This document shows positions 39,139 through 64,000 of a stretch of DNA of 64,000 bases, piece by piece. Numbering within the stretch: the stretch's first letter is position 1; every line of letters starts with the position of its first letter. The stretch comes from Methylobacter luteus IMV-B-3098 (lineage in GTDB: Bacteria; Pseudomonadota; Gammaproteobacteria; Methylococcales; Methylomonadaceae). The position numbers and the translations under genes were made by a program. The notes under the pieces are model-generated. The model was not told the DNA's origin. It did no database searches and was given only the letters and a program-made list of their open reading frames with translations. Location: the NCBI RefSeq assembly GCF_000427625.1, contig NZ_KE386569.1, positions 61,365 through 125,364 of the forward strand, in the 5' to 3' direction.

Positions 39139-39214
<76 letters not shown>

Positions 39215-39256: not shown

Positions 39257-39332
<76 letters not shown>

Positions 39333-53158: not shown

Positions 53159-53539
53159 TCACATTGCTTCGTCGCACTTTGTTAAAACATAATCAGTTGA
53201 CTTAAGCGCTTTTTTTATCTTGCCGAATTTAGCAGGCAGTTTCGAAACCAAGAAGCCATCGGTACAAATAGCTTCTCCAATATCGCCGCCTTCGAAATGG
53301 CCATGGCTGTGCGTAATGAATGCATAACGGCCTTGGCCTCCATATTCCTTGGCAAGGTAAGTACCATCTTTTAGCATGTAGGCTGGGTTGGAGCTTTGCG
53401 GAAACCCAGCTTTGGCGGCTTAGAAATGCTGGGTTTATCAACCCAGCCTACGAGCTACGAGCTCGAACAGGCTTAATGAATGCCCAGACAGCAGCAGGGA
53501 TGCATAGCATGCCGGTAAGTAATAGTTGTTTCAACATAC
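53159..53539 (-). pseudogene. Cassette gene split by a REPIN-like repeat
   Basis: The start MLKQLLLTGMLCIPAAVWAF is a signal peptide very like that of the HExxH cassette gene at 57793-58353. Translation hits a stop in the 74-bp repeat at 53378-53451. Beyond it one frame continues YLAKEYGGQGRYAFITH...DYVLTKCDEAM to a stop at 53159. The C-terminal part differs from the HExxH protein and I do not recognise it. Probably inactive as a secreted protein. Confidence 0.55.
53378..53451. repeat. REPIN-like paired palindrome 2, inside a cassette gene
   Basis: Perfect 13-bp outer ends GTAGGCTGGGTTG / CAACCCAGCCTAC enclose two smaller hairpins (each GCTGGGTT / AACCCAGC). 74 bp in all. The sequence differs from the element at 53036 but the architecture is the same. 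It interrupts the coding sequence of the last cassette. Confidence 0.65.
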
Positions 53540-53553
53540 GAGTCTCTCAAGAC

Positions 53554-53623
53554 GCATAACGTAAAAGTAACCGGCGCTGCGCGGCTTTATCGCGCAGCAT
53601 CCGTGTTGACTGCCGGGCTAGCG
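53554..53623 (-). repeat. attC site of the left cupin cassette
   Basis: 70 bp from GCATAAC to GCTAGCG, with an inner stem GCTGCGCG...CGCGCAGC. Near-identical to the site at 57122-57191, but the right-hand GTTAGCG core has become GCTAGCG, and one stem base differs. Confidence 0.8.
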
Positions 53624-53629
53624 CGGACT

Positions 53630-54109
53630 TCAATATGGCGTACCGTCTTTGTGTGCAAATTGCCATTTACCCTCGACAAAAACCGCCTGTATGTCATCGT
53701 CGGGGTACACGACGGAATCTCCTGCGCTGCGGTCACCAATTTCAAGGTAAATCACTTCTTCATTTGTGCGATTAAGCAACTGGTGCCCATTGCCTGTGCC
53801 AGCTTTGAATCCCGCGCACATGCCAGGCGAAAGTTGCGTTTCCCCTGTATCGGTAAGTAGCACGGGGCGACCATTCAATATGTAGATGAACTCATCTTGC
53901 TTAGCATGAGCATGACGCAAGGCTGAACCAGCACCGGGCAAAAGGCGCGTTAGATTTACCCCAAAGTTTGAAAGACCAAACACGTCGCCGAGAGGGCTCT
54001 TCTCTCGCCCCTTCATGCGTGAGGCGAAGGGTTCTGGATAGTTTGTGAGTTTCGAGCGTGGTGCAACCTCTGTTGCCACAACGGCTACAGGTGTGTCTTG
54101 ATCGTTCAT
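53630..54109 (-). CDS. Cupin-domain protein, cassette copy A
   Basis: 159 residues from MNDQDTPVAV. The single cupin barrel shows LRHAHAKQDEFIYILNGRPVLL and MCAGFKAGTGNGHQLLN; the metal-type histidines and glutamate are present. A small-molecule-binding or isomerase role is possible; the ligand is unknown. It differs from copy B by three bases and one residue (VATEVAP versus VATQVAP). A duplicate of the cassette at 57198. Confidence 0.85.
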   Translation of the reverse strand: MNDQDTPVAVVATEVAPRSKLTNYPEPFASRMKGREKSPLGDVFGLSNFGVNLTRLLPGAGSALRHAHAKQDEFIYILNGRPVLLTDTGETQLSPGMCAGFKAGTGNGHQLLNRTNEEVIYLEIGDRSAGDSVVYPDDDIQAVFVEGKWQFAHKDGTPY

Positions 54110-54130
54110 AGTGACTCCTGATGTATTGGG

Positions 54131-54217
54131 CGCTAACGTAGAGCTAACCGGCACTGCGCGGCTTTATCGCGCAGCGTCCAGCGACCGAAGGGAGCGAGGT
54201 TGAGCGCCGGGTTAGAC
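54131..54217 (-). repeat. attC site
   Basis: 87 bp from CGCTAAC to GTTAGAC. The long stem carries CTGCGCGGCTTTATCGCGCAG, a hairpin shared by several sites in the array. Confidence 0.88.
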
Positions 54218-54226
54218 GCGTGGTGC

Positions 54227-54646
54227 TTAGACATGAAACTGCCCGCTTTGCAGTACGAAGAGAGCAGGAAAAGCTGCGGTCTCACGGGCAAAGGAGAACG
54301 TAGCATAGGCACCAACGATTGTTTGGATAGTTGCGTGTTGCCCACCATTTACAAGCAACAGAATCAGAGCCAAGCCGGATAACCAAAGCAGAGCGACAGA
54401 TGCTTTGCCCGGAAACGATGAAACAAGTACGGCGCGAACTTGGAACGCAGAGCTTGCAGATTGGAACTGGCTGACATTGCGACGAAGGGCGATGTTTTGA
54501 AGTAGGCCGGCAAAGGCGCCCGCGACCATAAACACTGCCAGGATGGCCAATGACGGGCCGTTCCCAGTAAGAAAGCAAGCGAGCAATGCGGCAGCCATGA
54601 GGGCCATTAGAGCAGCGTTACCACGGGGAGTGAGTGTGTAGTGCAT
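54227..54646 (-). CDS. Cassette membrane protein, four predicted helices
   Basis: 139 residues with hydrophobic segments near residues 12-28, 32-50, 80-98 and 105-125. An arginine-rich loop (IALRRNVSQFQS) lies between the second and third. No family recognised. The ATG is four bases from the upstream attC end and has no ribosome site, so it is effectively leaderless within its cassette. Confidence 0.65.
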   Translation of the reverse strand: MHYTLTPRGNAALMALMAAALLACFLTGNGPSLAILAVFMVAGAFAGLLQNIALRRNVSQFQSASSAFQVRAVLVSSFPGKASVALLWLSGLALILLLVNGGQHATIQTIVGAYATFSFARETAAFPALFVLQSGQFHV

Positions 54647-54650
54647 AGCG

Positions 54651-54710
54651 ACCTAACGTTGGAATTAACGGGCGCGCGGTAGCGCGTCCCGGTTGAATGA
54701 CATGTTAGCT
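54651..54710 (-). repeat. attC site (short type)
   Basis: 60 bp from ACCTAAC to GTTAGCT with inner stem GGGCGCGC...GCGCGTCCC. The coding sequence of the 201-residue gene runs through most of it. Confidence 0.82.
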
Positions 54711-55270
54711 GTTGATTCTACCAAAGAGATTGACTCGCAGATGACAAAAGTATCATCAATTATTAAAGCCATATATTTTGAGTTTGGTGAATAGCTCTTT
54801 ACGATATTGACATGTAATTGTCCTTCAACTGAGGAGGCTAAAATTTCTATAAGTGAGCGAGGCCCTCTGGCTAACAAACCGTTTCCTCCAGTAAGAATGG
54901 TTGCACTTGCATGGATATGCATTGTGAAGGGACGCCAATCTGAAAAGAAAGATTGGTGGGCTGTGTATAGATGACCAATAACAGAGTACGGATCTTTCGG
55001 CGCAGATGAAAAGTAAAGATGAACATGCTCTTCGCTGTATTCAGAAAGCACTACATGCTCACCTTGCCACTTAACAAAACTAATAGGGCCAACATTAATG
55101 GTGCTTTCACGCACACCTTTACACAGAAGCTGAATATTGAGCTTACGTTCCTGGTTCGCCCAATCATCACATTCCATAGCTACTGTCATATATTCATTAT
55201 TAATGCTTATGGAATTAATGAACCCATTCAGGTCTTCGTAAAGCTGTTCGGATAATTCTTCAATGTTCAT
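54665..55270 (-). CDS. Cassette protein of unknown function, C-terminus encoded in attC
   Basis: 201 residues, acidic, mixed alpha/beta, with no signal peptide and no recognised motif; the segment YTAHQSFFSDWRPFTMHIHAS is distinctive. The general look (compact, acidic, cassette-borne) resembles immunity or sensor proteins but no family is claimed. The last 15 residues (NMSFNRDALPRAR) come from translated attC sequence. No ribosome site is obvious before the ATG. Confidence 0.6.
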   Translation of the reverse strand: MNIEELSEQLYEDLNGFINSISINNEYMTVAMECDDWANQERKLNIQLLCKGVRESTINVGPISFVKWQGEHVVLSEYSEEHVHLYFSSAPKDPYSVIGHLYTAHQSFFSDWRPFTMHIHASATILTGGNGLLARGPRSLIEILASSVEGQLHVNIVKSYSPNSKYMALIIDDTFVICESISLVESTANMSFNRDALPRAR

Positions 55271-55279
55271 AGTCTTTAC

Positions 55280-55360
55280 AGCTAACGCAGTGCATCACCG
55301 GCAGCAAAAGGCAGAGTGAAGTGGCGCTTTTTGCTGTCCGAGTGCATGCGATTGTTAGTC
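55280..55360 (-). repeat. attC site of the beta-lactamase cassette
   Basis: 81 bp from AGCTAAC to GTTAGTC. The stem GCAGCAAAAGGC...GCTTTTTGCTG differs from neighbouring sites, suggesting this cassette came from another array. Confidence 0.83.
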
Positions 55361-55373
55361 ATCTGTTTAGTTG

Positions 55374-56156
55374 TCACAGTATCCCCAACACTTTAAGGCT
55401 TGCTTTGCCCAGTTCTACACGTTTGTTGGCATCGGTTGCGTGCTGAATATCCATGTTCAATGCAAACGCATATACACGATCGCCTTTTTGTACCCACCCG
55501 ATCCACCAACCAATACCTCGGTTAGGAGCGTTTTCCCAACCCGTTTTACCATATAGCGCCCAATTTTCTCCCCGCTCCATTAGGACGATTTCGCGAACGC
55601 TTTTCTGAACCGACTGGGGGAACGGCAATGCCCCCTGAGCCAACTTAGCAAGAAAACGAGTTTGCTCCACAGCACTGATTTTGAGTGGGCCATTCAGCCA
55701 AAAGGTATCGATGGAAGTACCTATTTCTGCATTTCCGAAATCAAGCTTTGAAAGATTCTCGCTCATACGCGTTAAGCCGATACGTCGGGCCAAACTTTGG
55801 TAGATCGGGACATTGGACAGAGTAATCGCATCGCGCAATCCCATATCCTTCTCCCAAGTCTTGAACGGCTGTGGTTGGCCGCCATAAGGCAGAACCTCGT
55901 CAACACTTTCTACCGCACCAACTGAAAGTCCGATCAGCGAGTGGGGAATCTTGAACGTTGAAGCCGGAATATAGCGTGTTTCAGCGCGAGCTTTGTCGTA
56001 GCCAATTAGCCGTTGCTCGATGACATCATAGAGAACGAACGTGCCGTTCACGCCGGAGCCTTTAAATATGGCAGCTACTTTGTCGCTTTCTTCCCAACCA
56101 ACGGCATAGGCTCGAAATGTAAACAGTACAAATACCACAGCGAGTAGGTGCTTCAT
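55374..56156 (-). CDS. Class D (OXA-type) beta-lactamase
   Basis: 260 residues with a signal peptide (MKHLLAVVFVLFTFRAYA). All class D motifs are seen: the serine in PASTFKIPHS (STFK at 66-69), SNV at 114-116, FGN at 140-142, KTG at 204-206 and GWWIGWV. Periplasmic hydrolysis of beta-lactams by a carboxylated-lysine mechanism is expected. The spectrum cannot be predicted; no family number is assigned. AGAAGGAAA precedes the ATG. It sits in a cassette with an attC on each side. Confidence 0.93.
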   Translation of the reverse strand: MKHLLAVVFVLFTFRAYAVGWEESDKVAAIFKGSGVNGTFVLYDVIEQRLIGYDKARAETRYIPASTFKIPHSLIGLSVGAVESVDEVLPYGGQPQPFKTWEKDMGLRDAITLSNVPIYQSLARRIGLTRMSENLSKLDFGNAEIGTSIDTFWLNGPLKISAVEQTRFLAKLAQGALPFPQSVQKSVREIVLMERGENWALYGKTGWENAPNRGIGWWIGWVQKGDRVYAFALNMDIQHATDANKRVELGKASLKVLGIL

Positions 56157-56167
56157 AATTTCCTTCT

Positions 56168-56254
56168 GTCTAACGTAGAGCTGACCGGCGCTGCGCGGCT
56201 TTATCGCGCAGCGTCCAGCGACCGAAGGGAGCGAGGTCGAGCGCCATGTTAGAC
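56168..56254 (-). repeat. attC site
   Basis: 87 bp from GTCTAAC to GTTAGAC, matching the 54131 site over most of its length. The stop codon of the gene at 56249 lies in the GTTAGAC box. Confidence 0.88.
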
Positions 56255-56617
56255 CTCACGTTGCCTCCATGTGGCGATATACCCGGTTCGCGGCCAGAAG
56301 AAGGAACCGACGAGCGCTCCAACAAGAAACCACTGAGCCCCCCCGATGAGGCCGTGGATGAAAAGCGCCCGAAAATTCGGACCGCTGCCCCAGGTGTAAC
56401 CCCAGTCCATGAGGGCCACGACAGGAGGTGTTGTTGCCAAGAATTTCCATGCGAAGTTGCTTATCGGGTAGTCCAGCCACATGAACCAGAACCACGCGAA
56501 TTCGGCCTGTGCGCCGCCTCCGACGTGGATGGAAATGAACAATGCCAAAGCCAATGCGAGATGAACCGCAAACACGGCGGCTCCCACGATGATGGCGCAA
56601 CGAAGTGGGCTATTCAT
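56249..56617 (-). CDS. Cassette membrane protein rich in aromatic residues
   Basis: 122 residues with about three membrane helices (residues 8-30, 41-63, 88-112), and aromatic motifs FAWFWFMWLDYP and WGYTWGSG. No family recognised. The TAA stop lies inside the attC core. It is separated from the OXA gene by its own attC, as a distinct cassette. Confidence 0.65.
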   Translation of the reverse strand: MNSPLRCAIIVGAAVFAVHLALALALFISIHVGGGAQAEFAWFWFMWLDYPISNFAWKFLATTPPVVALMDWGYTWGSGPNFRALFIHGLIGGAQWFLVGALVGSFFWPRTGYIATWRQREV

Positions 56618-56622
56618 GTGAG

Positions 56623-56682
56623 GTCTAACGTGGAGCTAAGGGGCTGGCTGTAAGCCAGTCCCGGTTGAGCGCATGGTTAGAG
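56623..56682 (-). repeat. attC site (short type)
   Basis: 60 bp from GTCTAAC to GTTAGAG, with inner stem GGGGCTGGCT...AGCCAGTCCC. The phosphatase-like gene is translated through all of it. Confidence 0.85.
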
Positions 56683-57116
56683 TGCAACGCCGCTACGCAG
56701 TTTATGAATTCTTGCCAAGTTTCGTTTGGACTCCAGACCTCTCGCATGGGAAAAGATGCCTGCTCCTCGCTCTCGCCAAGTACGTGCTTGCGGTAGAGGT
56801 AGATAAAGGCCGATACGCGCATGTTCTTGGCGCAGTGTATCCAAATCTTGCGCTTAGCAAAGGCGTTGAGTACACCAATAAACTGGACGAACTGTTCAGG
56901 TTCAGGTCTCTCCCATCCCACGGGAATTTGGATATATGCCAGGCCTTGCTTGGTGATGAGTTCAGCTTCTCCGGGCAAAGCGTTGGAAGAAGTTGGAAGA
57001 GCAAGGTTTACGACGACCTCAATGCCCAGCGTGGGCAACCGGACAATATCACGTTCTGAAAGCTGTCCGGAAGACCACAGCCAGTCGAAAACTTGATGAG
57101 TATTCTCAGCGTCCAT
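56625..57116 (-). CDS. Protein tyrosine phosphatase-like protein with shortened P-loop
   Basis: 163 residues with the fold of the dual-specificity phosphatase superfamily: FDWLWSSGQLSERDIVRLPTLGI at the start and the P-loop region WIHCAKNMRVSAFIYLYR. The signature is C-x4-R (Cys95, Arg100) rather than C-x5-R, so classical phosphatase activity is doubtful. The TAG stop lies in the far end of the attC, so the C-terminal residues are attC-encoded. No strong ribosome site. Confidence 0.75.
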   Translation of the reverse strand: MDAENTHQVFDWLWSSGQLSERDIVRLPTLGIEVVVNLALPTSSNALPGEAELITKQGLAYIQIPVGWERPEPEQFVQFIGVLNAFAKRKIWIHCAKNMRVSAFIYLYRKHVLGESEEQASFPMREVWSPNETWQEFINCVAALHSNHALNRDWLTASPLAPR

Positions 57117-57121
57117 GTGCT

Positions 57122-57191
57122 CTTTAACGTAAAAGTAACCGGCGCTGCGCGGCTTTATCGCGCAGCGTCCGTGTTGACTGCCGGGTTAGCG
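57122..57191 (-). repeat. attC site of the right cupin cassette
   Basis: 70 bp from CTTTAAC to GTTAGCG; the intact counterpart of the 53554 site. Confidence 0.87.
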
Positions 57192-57197
57192 CGGACT

Positions 57198-57677
57198 TCA
57201 ATATGGCGTACCGTCTTTGTGTGCAAATTGCCATTTACCCTCGACAAAAACCGCCTGTATGTCATCGTCGGGGTACACGACGGAATCTCCTGCGCTGCGG
57301 TCACCAATTTCAAGGTAAATCACTTCTTCATTTGTGCGATTAAGCAACTGGTGCCCATTGCCTGTGCCAGCTTTGAATCCCGCGCACATGCCAGGCGAAA
57401 GTTGCGTTTCCCCTGTATCGGTAAGTAGCACGGGGCGACCATTCAATATGTAGATGAACTCATCTTGCTTAGCATGAGCATGACGTAAGGCTGAACCAGC
57501 ACCGGGCAAAAGGCGCGTTAGATTTACCCCAAAGTTTGAAAGACCAAACACGTCGCCGAGAGGGCTCTTCTCTCGCCCCTTCATGCGTGAGGCGAAGGGT
57601 TCTGGATAGTTTGTGAGTTTCGAACGTGGTGCAACCTGTGTTGCCACAACGGCTACAGGTGTGTCTTGATCGTTCAT
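57198..57677 (-). CDS. Cupin-domain protein, cassette copy B
   Basis: 159 residues, one residue different from copy A at 53630-54109 (Gln for Glu at residue 14). The cupin motifs LRHAHAKQDEFIYI and FKAGTGNGHQLLN are the same. The start MNDQDTP is preceded by AGGAGTCAC. Its cassette and flanking bases match copy A over about 570 bp, so one arose from the other by cassette duplication or homologous exchange. Confidence 0.86.
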   Translation of the reverse strand: MNDQDTPVAVVATQVAPRSKLTNYPEPFASRMKGREKSPLGDVFGLSNFGVNLTRLLPGAGSALRHAHAKQDEFIYILNGRPVLLTDTGETQLSPGMCAGFKAGTGNGHQLLNRTNEEVIYLEIGDRSAGDSVVYPDDDIQAVFVEGKWQFAHKDGTPY

Positions 57678-57698
57678 AGTGACTCCTGATGTATTGGG

Positions 57699-57788
57699 CG
57701 CTAACGTGGAGCTAACCGGGCGCGGTCCGGAAGACTGAAAAAATAAAACCGCATTGTAACCGCGCTCCGGTTGAGTGTAATGTTATGC
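57699..57788 (-). repeat. attC site (AT-loop type)
   Basis: 90 bp from CGCTAAC to GTTATGC; the stem CCGGGCGCGG...CCGCGCTCCGG encloses an A-rich loop GAAAAAATAAAACC. The same type as the sites at 59940 and 60736. Confidence 0.87.
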
Positions 57789-57792
57789 AATT

Positions 57793-58353
57793 TCATAAGT
57801 TATTGGCCTCTGTCCATAGCCGCTCTTTGCCTACCAGACTATACCAACCCTCAAATTGAGAGCGGTACTGCTCAAAAGGCTCGGATAGCTTTTGGCGGGG
57901 ATCTTCGCTGAGAGAGTACGCCATACCTTCCATAAACCATTTGGGTTCACGCCATGCTTGTATCATGCCAAGTTTCTCATTCTGAAGGTGGTGAATCATT
58001 TCATGGCGAACATAGTACGGTTTCCATGCGCGAGGGCTGATGACAATACCAAATGTGCCTACATTCACGCCCGCACGTTGCCCCATTTCAAAGAATTGAG
58101 AACAGGTGTCAGAACTGCAGAAAATGACGCGGGGTTTATTCTCAATCGATCCAACAGATAACTCGACAAAATGCAAAGCCTCATCGTACAGCTTGGCAGC
58201 TTCCTGATATCGGGACACATCATCTGTACACAATGTGTCATTGATGCAGGAAACCCCAGTCAGTTCAGGTGCAACCACTCGAACAGGCTTAAAGAATGCC
58301 CAGGCAGCGACAGGAGCGCAAAGTATGCCGACAAGCAATAGACGTTTCAACAT
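57793..58353 (-). CDS. Secreted protein with HExxH zinc-peptidase-like motif
   Basis: 186 residues. A signal peptide (MLKRLLLVGILCAPVAAWA) precedes a domain with VRHEMIHHLQNEK (HEMIH at 117-121) and a downstream glutamate in KWFMEGMAYSLSE, the layout of gluzincin metallopeptidases. Four cysteines (36, 42, 79, 84) could form disulfides. Export to the periplasm or outside is expected. It shares its signal peptide with the broken cassette gene at 53159. Confidence 0.75.
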   Translation of the reverse strand: MLKRLLLVGILCAPVAAWAFFKPVRVVAPELTGVSCINDTLCTDDVSRYQEAAKLYDEALHFVELSVGSIENKPRVIFCSSDTCSQFFEMGQRAGVNVGTFGIVISPRAWKPYYVRHEMIHHLQNEKLGMIQAWREPKWFMEGMAYSLSEDPRQKLSEPFEQYRSQFEGWYSLVGKERLWTEANNL

Positions 58354-58369
58354 ACGAACCTCCTAAGGT

Positions 58370-58456
58370 GCATAACGCTGCGCGTAACCGGCAGGCGGAA
58401 GCGGCAGAGCGCAGCGGCGCCGCTTTCGCCTGTCCGAGTTGACGAGCTTGTTAGGT
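58370..58456 (-). repeat. attC site
   Basis: 87 bp from GCATAAC to GTTAGGT, stem GGCAGGCGGAAGCGGC...GCCGCTTTCGCCTGTCC. Confidence 0.85.
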
Positions 58457-58469
58457 GCTATTCGGCCGC

Positions 58470-58892
58470 TCATTCAGATTTCGCGATGGTTTTGACGAGC
58501 ATACGAACGCGAGATTCAAAGTGCTTCTTTCCATAGGGGCGTGCTTCCTGCAGCAGTGCCAACCACTTGCGCAAGAATTCCCTATCACGAGCCAACACCC
58601 TACGATTGGCTTCCCAAGAATGCTCGTATTGAAGAATTGTTTCTTCAAGAACCTTCCATTCTTGGCTGCAAGTTGGACAGAGCGTAGGGAGCCAGCATGG
58701 ATATCTCTGTTCTACTTCAAAGGCTTGCTTTTGTGCTTCCGCTGAAAAGACGAACGACTTGCCACACTTCAAACAACGAGCGCGGAGCCCCTCGTAATGA
58801 GTTGCCTTTTCATCGTAGTGGCCAAGATACGACGGCTTGTGCCACTTTGAGCGATCTATCTCGATGCTTACTTCCGTGTTTCGCTCTTTCAT
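58470..58892 (-). CDS. Cassette protein with zinc-ribbon-type cysteine pairs
   Basis: 140 residues from MKERNTEVSIEIDRSKW (AAGGGG upstream). Two cysteine pairs, RARCLKCGKSFVFS and TLCPTCSQEW, suggest a split zinc ribbon; the C-terminal half is helical and basic. It resembles the probable-zinc-ribbon family. Nucleic-acid binding is possible but unproven. Confidence 0.7.
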   Translation of the reverse strand: MKERNTEVSIEIDRSKWHKPSYLGHYDEKATHYEGLRARCLKCGKSFVFSAEAQKQAFEVEQRYPCWLPTLCPTCSQEWKVLEETILQYEHSWEANRRVLARDREFLRKWLALLQEARPYGKKHFESRVRMLVKTIAKSE

Positions 58893-58910
58893 AGACGCGC
58901 CCCTTGTTGC

Positions 58911-59023
58911 ACCTAACGCCATGCTCAGCTGCCATTTGACGTGGGACTTTTTTGGGGGAAAATAGCGAAGCGGCCCCCAAAAAAGCCCCGCGGCAAATGG
59001 TCAGCTGCAGCTATTTGTTAGGC
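58911..59023 (-). repeat. attC site (long type)
   Basis: 113 bp from ACCTAAC to GTTAGGC, the longest in the array. The outer arms GCTCAGCTGCCATTTG and CAAATGGTCAGCTGC pair, enclosing a second hairpin TTTTTTGGGGG...CCCCCAAAAAA. Its sequence is unlike the other sites. Confidence 0.8.
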
Positions 59024-59437
59024 ACCTTTGGAAAAATCTTGGCTATTTGAAGTGGGCATACCATTTGGAAAGGATACCCACTCATGCTTTGATGCACACC
59101 AAGCAGCGGCTATAGGTTGAGGAAACTTGGGATCAGAAAAACAACCAACTGCTATGCCTACAGATTGTGGAACAAAACCAGCCTCCCAGAAAACAGTAGA
59201 ACCACAATTGGGACAAAAATGGCGCTCTAATTTACCACCGGAATCACCTGTGCTTGTAAAAGACTTAAACTTCCCATTTTTAGCTACCACCTGATCATTT
59301 GAAAAATAGGCGCTTACTCCAAAAACTGACCCAGTTCTTTTTTGACAGTTAGTGCAGGAACAGGCAACAACCATTTTTGGTTCGCCGTTTACTTCAACTT
59401 GAAGTTCTCCGCAGGAACAGCTAGCTTTTCTTGACAT
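59018..59437 (-). CDS. GFA/CENP-V family zinc protein
   Basis: 139 residues with the GFA fold's zinc cysteines: ASCSCGELQVEV, VACSCTNCQKRTGSVFG and HFCPNCGSTVFWE. Founding members bind the formaldehyde-glutathione adduct, but most family members have unproven roles. AAGGAT lies upstream of the ATG. The TAA stop lies in the attC core. Confidence 0.88.
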   Translation of the reverse strand: MSRKASCSCGELQVEVNGEPKMVVACSCTNCQKRTGSVFGVSAYFSNDQVVAKNGKFKSFTSTGDSGGKLERHFCPNCGSTVFWEAGFVPQSVGIAVGCFSDPKFPQPIAAAWCASKHEWVSFPNGMPTSNSQDFSKGA

Positions 59438-59478
59438 AATTTTATCCTTATCTTATTACGTATTTCGAAGATTTAAGT

Positions 59479-59541
59479 GCCTAACGTGAAGCTAAGGGGC
59501 GCGCAGCGAAGCGGAGCGTCCACTTGAGCGCAGGGTTAGCG
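59479..59541 (-). repeat. attC site (short type)
   Basis: 63 bp from GCCTAAC to GTTAGCG; inner stem GGGGCGCGCAGCG...GAGCGTCC. Confidence 0.82.
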
Positions 59542-59931
59542 GGCATTTTCTAGCACCTCTTCACCAGACTTAACCCAACTTTGCAAAAAGGTTTGATCAG
59601 CCGTAAACATACCGGAAAGCGTTGGTCCAAGACTGAAATTCTCGGGGCTAAATTTGTACACCACCTCTAACGCGCCGTTTTTGTGCAACGCAAAGTGGAA
59701 CTCAATATTTTCTTCCATGTTACCCCATGAAGCCTCGACATTTTCCCCAACCGATGCTTCGAGATGCCTTAGGGTTTGAATGAAACTACTCCATTCCTTC
59801 TTTTCAACCGTGCATGAAAAGTTGCCTTCAAACTTAGGCGCACGAATTTGAACAATGGTCTTCATCCACCCCTCACTGTCTGGGGAGGAGAAAGTAAAAA
59901 TTGATTCAAGACCGTGGCCGGAGATCTTCAT
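59536..59931 (-). CDS. Cassette protein of unknown function
   Basis: 131 residues, mostly beta with a central helix. KFEGNFSCTVEKKEWSSFIQ and SGMFTADQTFLQSW are notable; the second resembles segments in WapI-like immunity proteins, but the match is from memory and weak. No signal peptide. The ATG is nine bases from the upstream attC. Confidence 0.6.
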   Translation of the reverse strand: MKISGHGLESIFTFSSPDSEGWMKTIVQIRAPKFEGNFSCTVEKKEWSSFIQTLRHLEASVGENVEASWGNMEENIEFHFALHKNGALEVVYKFSPENFSLGPTLSGMFTADQTFLQSWVKSGEEVLENAR

Positions 59932-59939
59932 TCTTTGCT

Positions 59940-60029
59940 CGCTAACGTAGAGCTAACCGGGCGCGGCCCGGAAAGCTGAAAAAATAAAACCGCATTGTAA
60001 CCGCGCTCCGGTTGAGCGCCATGTTAGGC
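59940..60029 (-). repeat. attC site (AT-loop type)
   Basis: 90 bp from CGCTAAC to GTTAGGC, nearly the same as 57699-57788 and 60736-60824. Confidence 0.88.
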
Positions 60030-60719
60030 ATTTTTGAATCTCGGATATGTTATTGCCATTGCGATTATTCCTATTGTTGCAACAACAACCATTCCTTCAG
60101 GCATAAAAGATTGCATCATTTCTATCTCTCCCTCTCTTACAGGCAATCCTTGAACCTCTCTCCGCTTCAGCACCATTTGCTCCACTACAGGATCCCATAG
60201 TTTCCAGCTTAATACGTCAGAAACAAGGTTAAGCAGCGCAACCCCAATACCTACAATGATGCCTTTTACATCGAGTTTTAAGAACCAGTATCCTGCCAAA
60301 ATGAAAAACACCCCAAAAGCTAGATGTATTACAATCTGTGTTGTTTCATCAGGAAAAAAGCCAAACGCAGGTTGTGAAACAAACATTTGAGTCCATCTTA
60401 CAAGTTGCTTTGTTCCTTCGAGAACTAATAAGACACCGAGCAGTATAGTTAGCCAATTTTCTTTTATTAAAATATCGTTATTGACGGACATATCGTCTTT
60501 ATTGATACTCAGGAACGTATACCCGATCGAGCCAATAAATTTTGAAGTTATGAGGCGTATAACCACAAATACGACATAGGGCTCCCAGAACGGCATGCTT
60601 TCATCGAGGCCCAAAAAATAGGAAAGCAGAACCCATAGGGTCATAAAGAACAAGAAATCAAGATACCAGGATAGTAGCAGTCTTTTCTTTGATGCTTGGT
60701 TAATGCTTTGATTATCCAT
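60024..60719 (-). CDS. RDD-like membrane protein
   Basis: 231 residues with about five membrane helices. The first, with SKKRLLLSWYLDFLFFMTLW, has the RDD-family look (basic run then aromatic helix with Asp). The rest, including GYWFLKLDVKGIIVGIG, is hydrophobic and unassigned. Transport of a solute is possible. Its TAA stop lies in the attC core. Confidence 0.65.
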   Translation of the reverse strand: MDNQSINQASKKRLLLSWYLDFLFFMTLWVLLSYFLGLDESMPFWEPYVVFVVIRLITSKFIGSIGYTFLSINKDDMSVNNDILIKENWLTILLGVLLVLEGTKQLVRWTQMFVSQPAFGFFPDETTQIVIHLAFGVFFILAGYWFLKLDVKGIIVGIGVALLNLVSDVLSWKLWDPVVEQMVLKRREVQGLPVREGEIEMMQSFMPEGMVVVATIGIIAMAITYPRFKNA

Positions 60720-60735
60720 TGTTACTCCCTTTTAA

Positions 60736-60824
60736 GCCTAACGTAGAGCTAACCGGGCGCGGCACGGAAAGCTGAAAAATAAAACCGGATTATAACCGCG
60801 CTCCGGTTGAGCGCCATGTTAGCG
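60736..60824 (-). repeat. attC site (AT-loop type)
   Basis: 89 bp from GCCTAAC to GTTAGCG; same architecture as the 59940 site with minor changes. Confidence 0.88.
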
Positions 60825-61373
60825 CTATTCGGCATTAAGAATGAGCTCCGACATTCTTGCTGCTAGTTGCAAGTACCTATCAGCTTCGTCTTGATTGAGA
60901 CTGAAATCCGATAGGTGTGCTGCCTGATTACGTAGTCTACGCATGTGATCAAGCAGCTTGTCACTACCTGTTGGTAATTTACCAAGGCGCACAAGCTCTT
61001 CAACAAACAGATGTGGGTTTACACGAGGAATAGTTGCGCCTTGTACGAAGCCTGATTTGCCCGCCGCTTCCTCAACTAACACCCAAGCCTCCAGAATCGC
61101 GGCACGGGGTGAAACATCGGAAATGCGGCGTAGCTGCTCTAGTTTTGAAGTTAATTCCGGTCGAGGTGGTAATGATGGGGTGGATTTTTCAATTGCAATT
61201 GCTTTTGCTTCTGCCTCAGCGAGACCACCTTCAAACTTGGCTTCAACATCTTTGTATTTGAACTGGGACATGCGTTGGAGCAGCAAACGTAACTCTCCTT
61301 TGAAGAGGTACGCGATCCAGATCACGGCAATGGGCCATGCAATGCCAATTAGAAGCTGTACTAGTAATTCCAT
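60825..61373 (-). CDS. Membrane-anchored cassette protein with helical C-terminal domain
   Basis: 182 residues. An N-terminal membrane helix (LLIGIAWPIAVIWIAYLF) is followed by a charged helical linker and a domain with ILEAWVLVEEAAGKSGF and HMRRLRNQAAHLSDFSL. The RNQAAH motif recalls DUF4145/HEPN-like helical domains, some of which are RNases in defence systems. Function unknown. Confidence 0.65.
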   Translation of the reverse strand: MELLVQLLIGIAWPIAVIWIAYLFKGELRLLLQRMSQFKYKDVEAKFEGGLAEAEAKAIAIEKSTPSLPPRPELTSKLEQLRRISDVSPRAAILEAWVLVEEAAGKSGFVQGATIPRVNPHLFVEELVRLGKLPTGSDKLLDHMRRLRNQAAHLSDFSLNQDEADRYLQLAARMSELILNAE

Positions 61374-61389
61374 GGTTGTCCCTGTATGG

Positions 61390-61453
61390 CGCTAACGTGG
61401 AGCTAAGGGGCTGCGCCGCTTTTGCGCAGTCCCGCTTGAGCGCAGGGTTAGAG
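61390..61453 (-). repeat. attC site (short type)
   Basis: 64 bp from CGCTAAC to GTTAGAG; inner stem GGGGCTGCGC...GCGCAGTCCC. Confidence 0.85.
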
Positions 61454-61471
61454 TGCCGAACCTTAGATGAA

Positions 61472-61684
61472 TCATTTTTTATTCCTCTCTTGTAACGAAG
61501 AACCGCACCACGGACAAAACTTTATCTCAATAAAGGAAGAACCTCCATCGTGAACAATAATCCCATATTGGCGCGGGCGCGACTTGAAGAAAACGACGTT
61601 ATCTGGACACGCGAAAACGTCAGGGTGTTCTGAGCACTTGAAGTTTGCCCAGTAGTTCATAGTTTCGCAGCAATGGGTTGCCAT
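61472..61684 (-). CDS. Small cysteine-rich protein (DUF6980-like)
   Basis: 70 residues with the pattern HCCETM, CSEHPDVFACPDNV, YGIIVHDGGSSFIEIKFCPWCGSSL, which fits DUF6980-type small putative zinc-binding proteins found often in integrons. The ATG lies four bases from the attC end, so no separate ribosome site is possible. Confidence 0.75.
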   Translation of the reverse strand: MATHCCETMNYWANFKCSEHPDVFACPDNVVFFKSRPRQYGIIVHDGGSSFIEIKFCPWCGSSLQERNKK

Positions 61685-61688
61685 AGCA

Positions 61689-61751
61689 CTCTAACGTAGA
61701 GCTAACCGGCGCGAGCGGTAGCGAGCGTCCGAGTTGAGCGTAGTGTTAGAG
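61689..61751 (-). repeat. attC site (short type)
   Basis: 63 bp from CTCTAAC to GTTAGAG; stem CGGCGCGAGCG...GCGAGCGTCCG. Confidence 0.84.
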
Positions 61752-62099
61752 AGCATTTATTCGATACCAATGCGACAGTTCGTCAAATTTACGCTTTTCG
61801 TAGTCACCAAATTGATTCATATGTGCCTTTAATATTTCCCATTGCTCTTTTAGCTTAGGCGGAGCCTCCGTCGTTTCCGATTTTCTCACTATAGAAAGCA
61901 ATAGCTCAAAACCCTCCATACATACGAATTCATCGCTATTTTTTAAAATCACTTCGACGATGCTTGGTATTTGGTTAAATGCTTCTTCTTGATTCAGCGA
62001 ATTAACCAAGCGCTCTCTCAGTTTACAGAAATACCATTCATCATCTGAAAGCTTACCATCCCAGTCATTGAGCTCACTCACAAAATCGTCTGTTACCAT
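61746..62099 (-). CDS. Small acidic helical cassette protein
   Basis: 117 residues, almost all helical and acidic. VVEVILKNSDEFVC and FELLLSIVRKSE look like ARM/HEAT-type helix pairs, a form also used by immunity proteins. No cysteine pairs, signal or membrane segment. The TAA stop lies in the attC core. Confidence 0.6.
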   Translation of the reverse strand: MVTDDFVSELNDWDGKLSDDEWYFCKLRERLVNSLNQEEAFNQIPSIVEVILKNSDEFVCMEGFELLLSIVRKSETTEAPPKLKEQWEILKAHMNQFGDYEKRKFDELSHWYRINAL

Positions 62100-62114
62100 A
62101 TTTCTATGCTTGCT

Positions 62115-62195
62115 CTCTAACGTTTGCCATAACCGGCGCGCAAATGCAGAGCGCAGCGTAGCTTTTGCGCGTCCGAGTTGATGGCGTGGTTAGGC
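62115..62195 (-). repeat. attC site
   Basis: 81 bp from CTCTAAC to GTTAGGC; stem CGGCGCGCAAATGC...GCTTTTGCGCGTCCG. Confidence 0.85.
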
Positions 62196-62573
62196 ATTTG
62201 CTTCAAGGAGATCGTGACCATAGGAATTATCAATCGCGCACACCCACCGATTGTCGTTGCCTTTTTTGAAAACATAGGTAGCCTTCCGTTCTGTAGCCGG
62301 GAGATTCTTTGCTGAGACAACAGTCTTGGCCAGCACCAACACAGTATCTCCAGTTTCCAGGATTACCATCCCAGCTTGCTCAACATCCAGACTGTGTTCG
62401 AAGTGAGCCGCAATTGCTTCAAATGCTTTCTTGATCTGTTCTTTTCCCACAGCATTCATTCCCGGCTTAACCACAAGGACAGCATCATCGGAATAGATGT
62501 CGATCAAAGTCGAGAAATCTTCTTGGTTTATCGCGGTATCCGCCTTGTTGATCAGAAGTTCTATCGGGTGCAT
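62190..62573 (-). CDS. NTF2-like (SnoaL/DUF4440-type) protein
   Basis: 127 residues of the NTF2-like fold: MHPIELLINKADTAINQEDF, DIYSDDAVLVVKPGM, and a C-terminal WVCAIDNSYGHDLLE. Such proteins bind small hydrophobic ligands or act as isomerases, but no catalytic residues are certain. The TAA stop is within the attC core. Confidence 0.78.
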   Translation of the reverse strand: MHPIELLINKADTAINQEDFSTLIDIYSDDAVLVVKPGMNAVGKEQIKKAFEAIAAHFEHSLDVEQAGMVILETGDTVLVLAKTVVSAKNLPATERKATYVFKKGNDNRWVCAIDNSYGHDLLEANA

Positions 62574-62592
62574 TGCCGTTCCTTTTTTGAGT

Positions 62593-62679
62593 GCCTAACA
62601 CTTCCCATAACAGGCTGCCCAAAGATGCAGAGCGAAGCGGCGCAGCTTTGGGCAGTCCGAATTTACGCGATTGTTAGGC
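62593..62679 (-). repeat. attC site
   Basis: 87 bp from GCCTAAC to GTTAGGC; arms GGCTGCCCAAAG and CTTTGGGCAGTCC pair. Confidence 0.86.
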
Positions 62680-62697
62680 ATGTCTATGTGATGACTA

Positions 62698-63216
62698 TTA
62701 TTCAGACCGAATGCCATTTAGAAACTCCCTAATGGCGCGTGGCGACCTCAAGTGAAGAACTTTCTTTGATTTCATAGAGTCGGAAACAAGTTGTCGGTAT
62801 GCGGGAGTCAGTTTTCTATGGCACAGCCAAAGAACCCGGTAACTATTAAGTGTCCCCTTGAATATTGGGCTGTTATCAGGCCAACCTTCGGGATTTACAA
62901 ATAAACCTTTTAGCAGCCGCTTTGTCACCCACATGCCATGTGTTAATAACGGTAGATCAATAAAAATTAGCGTATCTGCAACAGAGAAACGTTCCCATGC
63001 TGATGAGATGCAACCAAATCCATCAATGATCCATTCCTCTTGCATTAAGAGACCAGAATGGATGTTGAGATATTCAGCATGTGGAACTTCTCCGCCCCCT
63101 GCCTGGTATTTTATTTTGTCCAGAGAGTATAGGGGAAGGCTAGTGGCTTCGGCCAACTGCTTAGCCAGCGTAGACTTGCCTCCTCCCGCATTACCAAATA
63201 TTGCTACTTTTTTCAT
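62698..63216 (-). CDS. P-loop kinase-like protein (adenylate-kinase-related)
   Basis: 172 residues from MKKVAIFGNAGGGKSTLAKQL (AGGAAG upstream); the frame is open 33 codons further but that covers a terminator. Walker A GNAGGGKST is followed by SLPLYSLDKIKYQ and WIIDGFGCISSAWERF, and FIDLPLLTHGMW, as in topology-modulation/FlaR-type AAA proteins. Phosphoryl transfer to a small substrate is likely; its identity is unknown. Confidence 0.8.
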   Translation of the reverse strand: MKKVAIFGNAGGGKSTLAKQLAEATSLPLYSLDKIKYQAGGGEVPHAEYLNIHSGLLMQEEWIIDGFGCISSAWERFSVADTLIFIDLPLLTHGMWVTKRLLKGLFVNPEGWPDNSPIFKGTLNSYRVLWLCHRKLTPAYRQLVSDSMKSKKVLHLRSPRAIREFLNGIRSE

Positions 63217-63416
63217 GTTGCTTCCTATGGCTTTAGCTAAAGCCCAAGAAGCTGACAATAAAAACCCGCCTCTTGGGCGGGTTTGAAAAACTACTGTCGC
63301 GTCAAAACCCACCATTCCTATGGAATGATGGAAATAATTCGAAAAGATTGGCGCGAACAGCTTGTATTCATAGTATGCATCGTTACAGATAAGTTTCTGG
63401 AAGTCAACTCCGAAAT
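63217..63416 (-). other. Noncoding leader of the P-loop cassette
   Basis: About 200 bp between the gene start and the next attC. It contains a minus-strand terminator (63255-63284), a small hairpin around CATTCC/GGAATG (63314-63329) and a possible TTGACT box on the minus strand near 63405. No plausible separate protein was seen. It could carry a promoter, a short RNA or an attenuator. Confidence 0.4.
63255..63284 (-). terminator. Intrinsic terminator inside a cassette leader
   Basis: AAACCCGCC / GGCGGGTTT (63262-63270 and 63276-63284) with a 5-base loop; on the minus strand it runs into TTTTTATT. It would stop transcription coming from the right about 40 bp before the P-loop gene starts. Confidence 0.75.
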
Positions 63417-63488
63417 GCCTAACGAAGAGCTAACCGGCGCTGCGCGGCTTTATCGCGCAGCGTCCAGCGACCGAAGGGAGCGAGGTCG
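63417..63488 (-). repeat. attC site truncated on its right side
   Basis: GCCTAAC and the stem with CTGCGCGGCTTTATCGCGCAG match the 56168 site base for base up to GAGGTCG, then the sequence changes. The right-hand GTTRRRY core is missing. The break coincides with the edge of the IS3-type element. Confidence 0.8.
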
Positions 63489-63493
63489 GTAAT

Positions 63494-64000
63494 TGTCAAA
63501 ATAACTGTCGCCTCAACAGTTAAATCAGGCCGCTTTTTTCAGCGCCTGCCGAATTATATTTTTGTCCTTCTGGTCAGGGTTCAAATAGACCTCAAGTACA
63601 GGCTCCCAATTTCGTGTTTTGCTCCGCCAGCGTTCCGGACGGCGCTTTTTGGCGGCTTGATAGGCCGCCTTTCGCTGTTTCAAAATCGCGAAGTCTTGTC
63701 CGCTATGCCGCTGATCTGGCGTGACAAACTGAATGGCGCTGTGCCGATGTTCATGGTTATACCAGTCCACAAAGCCAGCCACCCAGCGTCGGGCCTGATT
63801 CAAATCCGCAAAGGGGTGGACCGGATAGTCCGGCCGATATTTGAGGGTCTTGAACAAGGCTTCCGAATACGGATTATCATTGCTCACCGCCGGTCGCGAG
63901 AACGACGGCAGGATGCCCAAGGCCTGCAGGGTCGCCAGCATCGTGGCGCCCTTCATGGGGCCGCCGTTGTCAGAATGCAGGGTCACCTGCTGACGGGGGA
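63494..64000 (-). mobile_element. IS3-family insertion sequence, partial at window end
   Basis: The left end probably begins at TGTCAAAATAACTGTCGCC (63494), since IS3 elements start with TG and the attC sequence stops just before. The transposase OrfB continues out of the window, so the right end and the target duplication cannot be seen. Confidence 0.7.
63525..64000 (-). CDS. IS3-family transposase OrfB, C-terminal part
   Basis: The integrase-core domain with the second Asp in LHSDNGGPMKG and the Glu in NDNPYSEALFKTLKYR, then the usual DLNQARRWVAGFVDWYNHEHRHSA. The frame is open to the end of the window, and residues before LHSDNGG continue beyond it, so this is a fragment only because of the window edge. 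OrfA would lie outside. Confidence 0.93.
   Translation of the reverse strand, partial: PRQQVTLHSDNGGPMKGATMLATLQALGILPSFSRPAVSNDNPYSEALFKTLKYRPDYPVHPFADLNQARRWVAGFVDWYNHEHRHSAIQFVTPDQRHSGQDFAILKQRKAAYQAAKKRRPERWRSKTRNWEPVLEVYLNPDQKDKNIIRQALKKAA

Follow-up and report, generated by a model that had tools for sequence, protein, structure and literature searches.

The 64,000-nucleotide stretch of Methylobacter luteus IMV-B-3098 analyzed here (the window) ends in an array of 18 attC sites that very probably belongs to a complete chromosomal integron, with its attI site and an intact integrase gene (intI) lying just past the window edge, and with a second integron, 1.74 Mb away, that has a matching attI and a matching N-terminal half of the integrase, the rest of that enzyme coming from another clade. 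We name IntI1 the integrase of the window integron and IntI2 that of the second integron on the same chromosome; coordinates past 64000 are extrapolated window coordinates. The array, the platform formed by attI and intI, the locus common to the genus, the duplicated and shared cassettes, and the change of clade within intI2 are read directly in the sequence. By itself, the window array is an ordinary integron. What is new is the pair of integrons, with a natural hybrid integrase accompanied by the attI that matches it; a search of the open-access literature returned no earlier account of an integron integrase that is a natural hybrid.

The attC array and its integron platform

The 17 complete attC sites, all individually delimited, occupy window positions 53554..62679 (first site 53554-53623, last 62593-62679), and an 18th starts at 63417 and is interrupted at 63486, where an insertion sequence (IS) begins. 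Orientation is identical for all sites over the span 53554-63486. Every site folds on the plus strand and the cassette genes all lie on the minus strand, so that the plus strand is the bottom strand of the cassettes, the one used by integron integrases. In an alignment of the 17 sites, 92.4% of the R/L stem cells are paired. None of 500 shuffles reaches this value, and offsetting the 3' partners by one to three columns lowers it to 42.9% or less. The cells changed on both sides of the stem number 22 (0 of 500 shuffles as high), and the stem pairs showing such a double change number five, a less telling count as 46 of 500 shuffles reach it. Folding each site as bottom strand, a check proposed by an earlier sequence-only reading of this DNA, returns uneven z-scores, from -7.9 to 0.0, with three of the 17 above -1.2 (54131, 59479, and 53554); for some sites the evidence is therefore the common stem pattern, not the folding energy. 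The 17 complete palindromes listed in that reading are all recovered, and its count of 18 genes or remnants on the minus strand is made up of 17 small genes, each with an attC, and the remnant at 53159..~53553, which has no attC of its own.

A covariance model built from the 17 sites, which fit it by construction, returns no match in window positions 1-53500, even at E<=10. The independent test of the model lies in the second array and in other genomes: in the 39 intI loci searched, out of 80 fetched from other genomes, it reports 108 matches in 27 loci, and all 108 have the orientation expected relative to intI. Rfam at gathering scores reports no attC match. At least 36 attC sites are counted genome-wide, with 150 of 1413 candidates scored, and further model matches elsewhere in the genome come in groups of two to three (L093, L094, L096) or as single sites (L095, L097, L098).

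Past the window edge, an intI gene at C1:127310 scores 494 bits with the TIGR02249 profile (cut-off 265) and, being devoid of stop codons, is intact. The attI site, located as the start of the identity between the two platforms at a TAAC core upstream of intI, and one further cassette lie between intI and the IS, and intI is about 2.4 kb away from the last in-window attC base. With cassette genes on the minus strand and intI on the plus strand, the cassettes run in one orientation, away from the integrase. The IS, a 1660 bp element of the IS3 family, splits the attC of the first cassette and is flanked by a 4-bp duplication, AGGT; of its eight full copies in the genome, five have a 4-bp duplication and the other three are unclear. 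In a search for the cassette promoter Pc, two sigma-70-like matches are found on the cassette strand at the platform, the best at 10 of 12 positions, with four in total versus 1.2 expected, by consensus only; they are candidates for Pc. Two ambiguous bases (N) are present in the IS transposase just past the right end of the window (L009 11366 and 11376). At G000:C1:2408283-2408495, close to both partial and full IS copies, there is a fragment of an integrase that contains two stop codons.

The sequence-only reading had recognized an integron cassette array and had guessed that the platform lies to the right of the IS3 element, and both are right; it had also advised a search for an integrase on the contig beyond position 64000, where the TIGR02249 match lies. 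The truncation that it reported for the 18th site is ruled out, as the site is split by the IS insertion with its target duplication. Its alternative, an attC cluster lacking an integrase, in which the platform would have been lost and recombination would have ended, draws on the absence of intI within the window and on the IS that breaks the attC of the first cassette. Intact intI and attI behind the IS rule against this alternative and make the element a complete integron, and the cassette copies described below have diverged by only about 1% or less; we regard a lost platform as extremely improbable.

A second integron with a hybrid integrase

The second integron, outside the DNA open to the sequence-only reading, is found on the same contig, with an intact intI2 gene at C1:1865160-1866131. 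The covariance model reports 16 attC sites in its L010 stretch, 11 of which adjoin intI2 within 5.5 kb (L010 13207-18741), the other five being dispersed over distances of up to 18 kb from it. The two attC groups are separated by 11 kb of larger genes (L010 1798-13206), where only two attC matches occur.

From attI to codon 171, the second and the window integrons are identical at 613 of 634 nucleotides (96.7%), versus 295 of 460 (64%) for the remainder of intI2, and the protein identity of IntI2 and IntI1 is 97% in the N-terminal half and 61% in the C-terminal half. IntI1 belongs throughout to a clade that we call A. In contrast, the C-terminal half of IntI2 belongs to a clade B, with up to 88% identity, and the N-terminal halves of 106 clade B relatives (those of at least 300 residues among 119 others, listed from 7968 matches) are only 57-67% identical to that of IntI2. 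Trees of the two halves, each with 62 rows (30 of the 80 clade A sequences, 30 of the 106 from clade B, and the two own integrases), place IntI2 accordingly: it pairs with IntI1 (SH-aLRT 96) outside clade B (100) in the N-terminal tree, and falls inside clade B (100) in the C-terminal tree. The position of the switch is given by 291 diagnostic sites, defined with the congeneric genomes G053 and G074 as clade A references and G029 as the clade B reference. Up to L009 13803, IntI2 has 163 A, no B, and two other bases, and from L009 13811 on it has 15 A, 97 B, and 14 others (Fisher p 9e-59 at the best-fitting break, a value not corrected for choosing the break). The clade thus changes within 8 bp, at codons 174-176, after a GKGAKDR hairpin, and the parental types have the same short sequence, TGCCGGA, at this break.

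Such a composition is found in no other integrase of the set compared. Among 369 integrases (80 selected for similarity to IntI1, 218 for similarity to IntI2, 69 as the best of 116 other places in the family, and the two own), 78 of the 67,896 pairs differ by more than 25 points between N- and C-terminal identities, and all 78 involve IntI2. In a protein database clustered at 90%, where the IntI2 cluster has two members on one contig, the best other full-length match to IntI2 has 80% identity. The nearest integrase of solved structure is VchIntIA / IntI4 (PDB 2A3V; 307 bits over residues 11-323 of IntI2), and the catalytic motifs of IntI2 are present in the alignment to it. IntI2 is, as its two halves read, a recombinant (hybrid) integron integrase, with an abrupt change from one clade to the other between its halves.

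An assembler could be misled by two platforms as similar as these within a genome, and intI2 might then be an artefact joining reads of both. However, the shared part of intI2 differs from IntI1 at 21 of 634 nucleotides and is not a copy of that sequence, and the contig is 4.5 Mb long with a prfC flank that matches G029, so that we consider an assembly artefact very unlikely.

Origin of the hybrid

The second integron adjoins prfC, and at the same place G029 (prfC 91%) has an unrecombined clade B integrase. At prfC, G053 has a broken integrase remnant, in two pieces, which are all clade B together with the attI, and G074 has no integrase at this locus. G029 and G053 each keep a broken remnant where the other is intact, of clade A at hsp20 in G029 and of clade B at prfC in G053. 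In the seven platforms of the genus that were compared, the attI type tracks the N-terminal half: the A type is found in the two own platforms, in G053, in G074, and in the G029 remnant, and the B type in the intact G029 platform and in the G053 remnant. Clade B integrases at prfC in both G029 and G053 indicate that the prfC platform was of clade B in the genus, and hence that attI and the N-terminal half have here been replaced by clade A sequence. With an unrecombined clade B parent at the same locus in a relative, gene conversion between platforms is the likely cause of the hybrid. Homologous conversion from a genus-typical clade A platform would have replaced, at prfC, the attI site together with the 5' half of a clade B intI, and the donor would most simply be the resident platform, that of the window. 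Since attI came along with the N-terminal half, the hybrid is predicted to retain matched, A-type attI recognition.

Several points weigh against this account or against parts of it. Over 513 shared nucleotides, IntI2 has the base of G053 and G074, unlike IntI1, at six sites and the base of IntI1, unlike G053 and G074, at eight, so that the donor may be a different clade A platform of Methylobacter. Left of attI there are only cassettes, in which the edge of the conversion cannot be located. The private codons of IntI2, two synonymous and two non-synonymous, are too few to show selection on the hybrid. An A base is still found after the break at 22 diagnostic sites in the first alignment and at 15 in the second, and the first alignment has one B site before the break (13301, beside a gap); we take these stray sites as parallel change or an alignment effect. 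The 369 integrases are a non-random sample. Lastly, no LexA box with two or fewer mismatches is present in the attI-intI promoter stretch, using the consensus given in PMC3108266, and the 20-kb locus has 75 LexA-box matches, close to the mean of 68.8 expected by chance.

The bases that the N-terminal half of IntI2 has in common with the relatives only, close as it is to IntI1, would also suit a hybrid that arrived whole by lateral transfer from another species instead of being made in this chromosome. This origin seems rather unlikely, since the prfC locus carries a clade B platform, intact in G029 and broken in G053, and since neither another hybrid among the 369 integrases nor another full-length protein match above 80% is found.

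Returning to conversion between platforms, attI and the N-terminal half of the integrase may constitute an exchangeable module for cassette docking; the window platform would have overwritten that of the second integron, giving a working hybrid that recruits cassettes at the same type of attI with a foreign catalytic half, two integrases serving one attI, and cassettes flowing between the arrays. We give this extended proposal somewhat less than an even chance. Under the main account, apart from this proposal, the integrase probably captures single-stranded folded cassettes at attI and shuffles them by attC recombination, and cassettes probably pass between the two arrays.

Probable cassette movement within and between arrays

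A cupin cassette is present twice in the array (595 nucleotides, 99.0% identity), and the WapI-like cassette (about 59481-59948) is also present in the second integron (468 nucleotides, 99.4% identity). Both copied blocks begin and end at the TAAC core, which is the integrase cut point, except for a few bases common to neighboring attC sites, and the sequence outside is unrelated. For the cassette that encodes a P-loop protein and carries a P9 RNA leader, a full-length match with equal edges is present in another genus (62596-63423, 93.1%, L199); gene and leader also match a third genus without the attC (62672-63424, 94.0%, L200). We infer from these copies a present-day recombination activity of the window integron, and the shared cassette suggests that the two integrons of this chromosome may draw on a common pool.

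As homologous exchange evidently acted on the platforms, it might also have copied the near-identical cassettes without any integrase. Block edges at the attC core with unrelated sequence outside, and the whole-length match of the P-loop cassette in one other genus with the same edges, argue against such copying, which is distinctly unlikely.

Chromosomal locus and distribution in the family

In G053, purL (91% identity), the platform (93%), and hsp20 (91%) occur in the same order as here, with attC matches in between. The platform also adjoins hsp20 in G074, and G029 has only the broken integrase remnant next to this gene. By this gene order, the window element is identified as a sedentary chromosomal integron of the genus, at the purL-hsp20 locus. 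A mobile integron (classes 1-5), borne by a plasmid or transposon, was considered as well and is ruled out by the 4.5-Mb contig that holds both integrons and by the locus common to the genus; one IS lies inside the first attC of the window integron. An intI gene is present in four of the four genomes of the genus compared, and in two copies in this genome only. At E<=1e-80, integron integrases are found in 93 of 201 sampled genomes of the family, in 24 of 29 genera, and in none of 14 control genomes, and such an element is therefore not rare among the relatives. In several family genomes, the integrase matches lie in open frames of ~470-530 residues, above the usual length (e.g. G078:C1:4115762-4116700).

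Relation to known integrons

Like other sedentary chromosomal integrons, the window element has intI, attI, a one-direction attC array, and a fixed locus across species of a genus; it differs in that its chromosome carries two platforms, of which one has a recombinant attI-intI. The presence of several intI genes in a genome is already known and is put at 20% of bacteria in PMC2426708. Integrons of methanotrophs are also in print: PMC8527097 describes those of Methylococcus sp. Mc7 and M. geothermalis IM1, and Mc7 combines a complete integron with an attC cluster of nine sites and an integrase that stands alone. The earlier remark that such arrays are little described in methanotrophs is hence only half right, given these reports and the 93 family genomes with intI. 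A hybrid integrase was not found in the passages of PMC8527097 consulted, and the window array differs from the Methylococcus integrons by being longer (18 sites) and by keeping its platform. The window alone, an attC array without intI, resembles a cluster of attC sites lacking an integrase (CALIN), from which it is distinguished by the intI past its edge. IntI2 differs from VchIntIA / IntI4 by its switch of clade. In Vibrio, PMC1382264 proposes gene conversion among cassettes and among attC sites; that process, too, is a non-reciprocal recombination on integron parts, acting there on cassettes and attC, whereas here it would have hit attI and intI.

The hybrid represents a natural swap inside one enzyme, for which both parental types occur in the same genus and in which attI moved with the N-terminal half. 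It would be a natural test of which enzyme half recognizes which site: if the hybrid works, the parts of IntI that read attI and attC could be told apart directly, and it could be tested whether platforms evolve by exchange of pieces and not only by whole transfer.

Cassette genes and neighboring features

The features of the array and its platform are collected in Table 1.

Table 1. Cassette genes, attC sites and platform elements in window coordinates
Feature	Position	Strand	Basis or remark
Remnant of last cassette, without own attC	53159..53553	-	ORFs (open reading frames); upper part 78-80% identical to 58278-58377 (start of cassette 57793-58353)
attC	53554..53623	+	Fold, covariance model
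Cupin cassette gene, copy 1	53630..54112	-	Pfam PF07883; cassette 99% identical to 57125-57719
attC	54131..54217	+	Fold, covariance model
Cassette gene without Pfam family	54227..54646	-	ORF
attC	54651..54710	+	Fold, covariance model
Cassette gene without Pfam family, 3' end extends into own attC	54665..55270	-	ORF
attC	55280..55360	+	Fold, covariance model
Class D (OXA-type) beta-lactamase cassette gene	55374..56156	-	NF012161, 295.9 bits, cut-off 250
attC	56168..56254	+	Fold, covariance model
Cassette gene without Pfam family	56249..56617	-	ORF
attC	56623..56682	+	Fold, covariance model
Dual-specificity-phosphatase-like cassette gene	56625..57116	-	PF22741
attC	57122..57191	+	Fold, covariance model
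Cupin cassette gene, copy 2	57198..57677	-	ORF, identity to copy 1
attC	57699..57788	+	Fold, covariance model
Cassette gene without Pfam family	57793..58353	-	ORF
attC	58370..58456	+	Fold, covariance model
Cassette gene, weak treble-clef zinc finger match	58470..58892	-	PF13451, below cut-off
attC, longest of array	58911..59023	+	Fold, covariance model
GFA family cassette gene	59018..59437	-	PF04828
attC; 3' end of cassette common to second integron	59479..59541	+	Fold, covariance model
WapI-like immunity family cassette gene	59536..59931	-	PF24716; cassette also in second integron
attC	59940..60029	+	Fold, covariance model
DUF7144-like cassette gene	60024..60719	-	Below cut-off
attC	60736..60824	+	Fold, covariance model
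DUF4145 cassette gene	60825..61373	-	Pfam
attC	61390..61453	+	Fold, covariance model
DUF6980 cassette gene	61472..61684	-	Pfam
attC	61689..61751	+	Fold, covariance model
Cassette gene without Pfam family	61746..62099	-	ORF
attC	62115..62195	+	Fold, covariance model
SnoaL/DUF4440 cassette gene	62190..62573	-	Pfam
attC	62593..62679	+	Fold, covariance model
P-loop (DNA topology modulation-like) cassette gene	62698..63216	-	NF005994, below cut-off
P9 RNA (RF00624), leader of P-loop cassette	63261..63341	-	54.2 bits, gathering 43
Left part of first cassette's attC, ends with AGGT 63483-63486	63417..63486	+	Right part 65147-65167, extrapolated
IS3-family element, left part in window	63487..64000	-	1660 bp in all, to 65146
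First cassette gene, beyond window	65162-65782 (extrapolated)	-	
attI core, beyond window	about 65797 (extrapolated)		
intI, beyond window	65919-66890 (extrapolated)	+	

The nearest models of the beta-lactamase are OXA-50-like, the OXA-50 models scoring below their own cut-offs; a class D beta-lactamase is thus present as a cassette in an environmental integron. PADLOC analysis of 10 cassette proteins reports weak, partial matches only.

P9 RNA, considered as a possible regulator of cassettes, has matches in 12 of the 201 family genomes, nine of them above the cut-off, with three matches in this genome. Of the 16 match loci, 10 were inspected, and in each of these P9 adjoins a P-loop gene, either by itself or together with a SnoaL gene. 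P9 with the P-loop gene is found in L199, L200, and L207, each also with strong attC matches, and P9 with both SnoaL and P-loop genes in L192-L194, L196-L198, and L204, with at most one weak attC match. Apart from the array, the window holds two tRNA genes on the plus strand (39139-39211 and 39257-39329), with equal Rfam scores and starts 118 bases apart.

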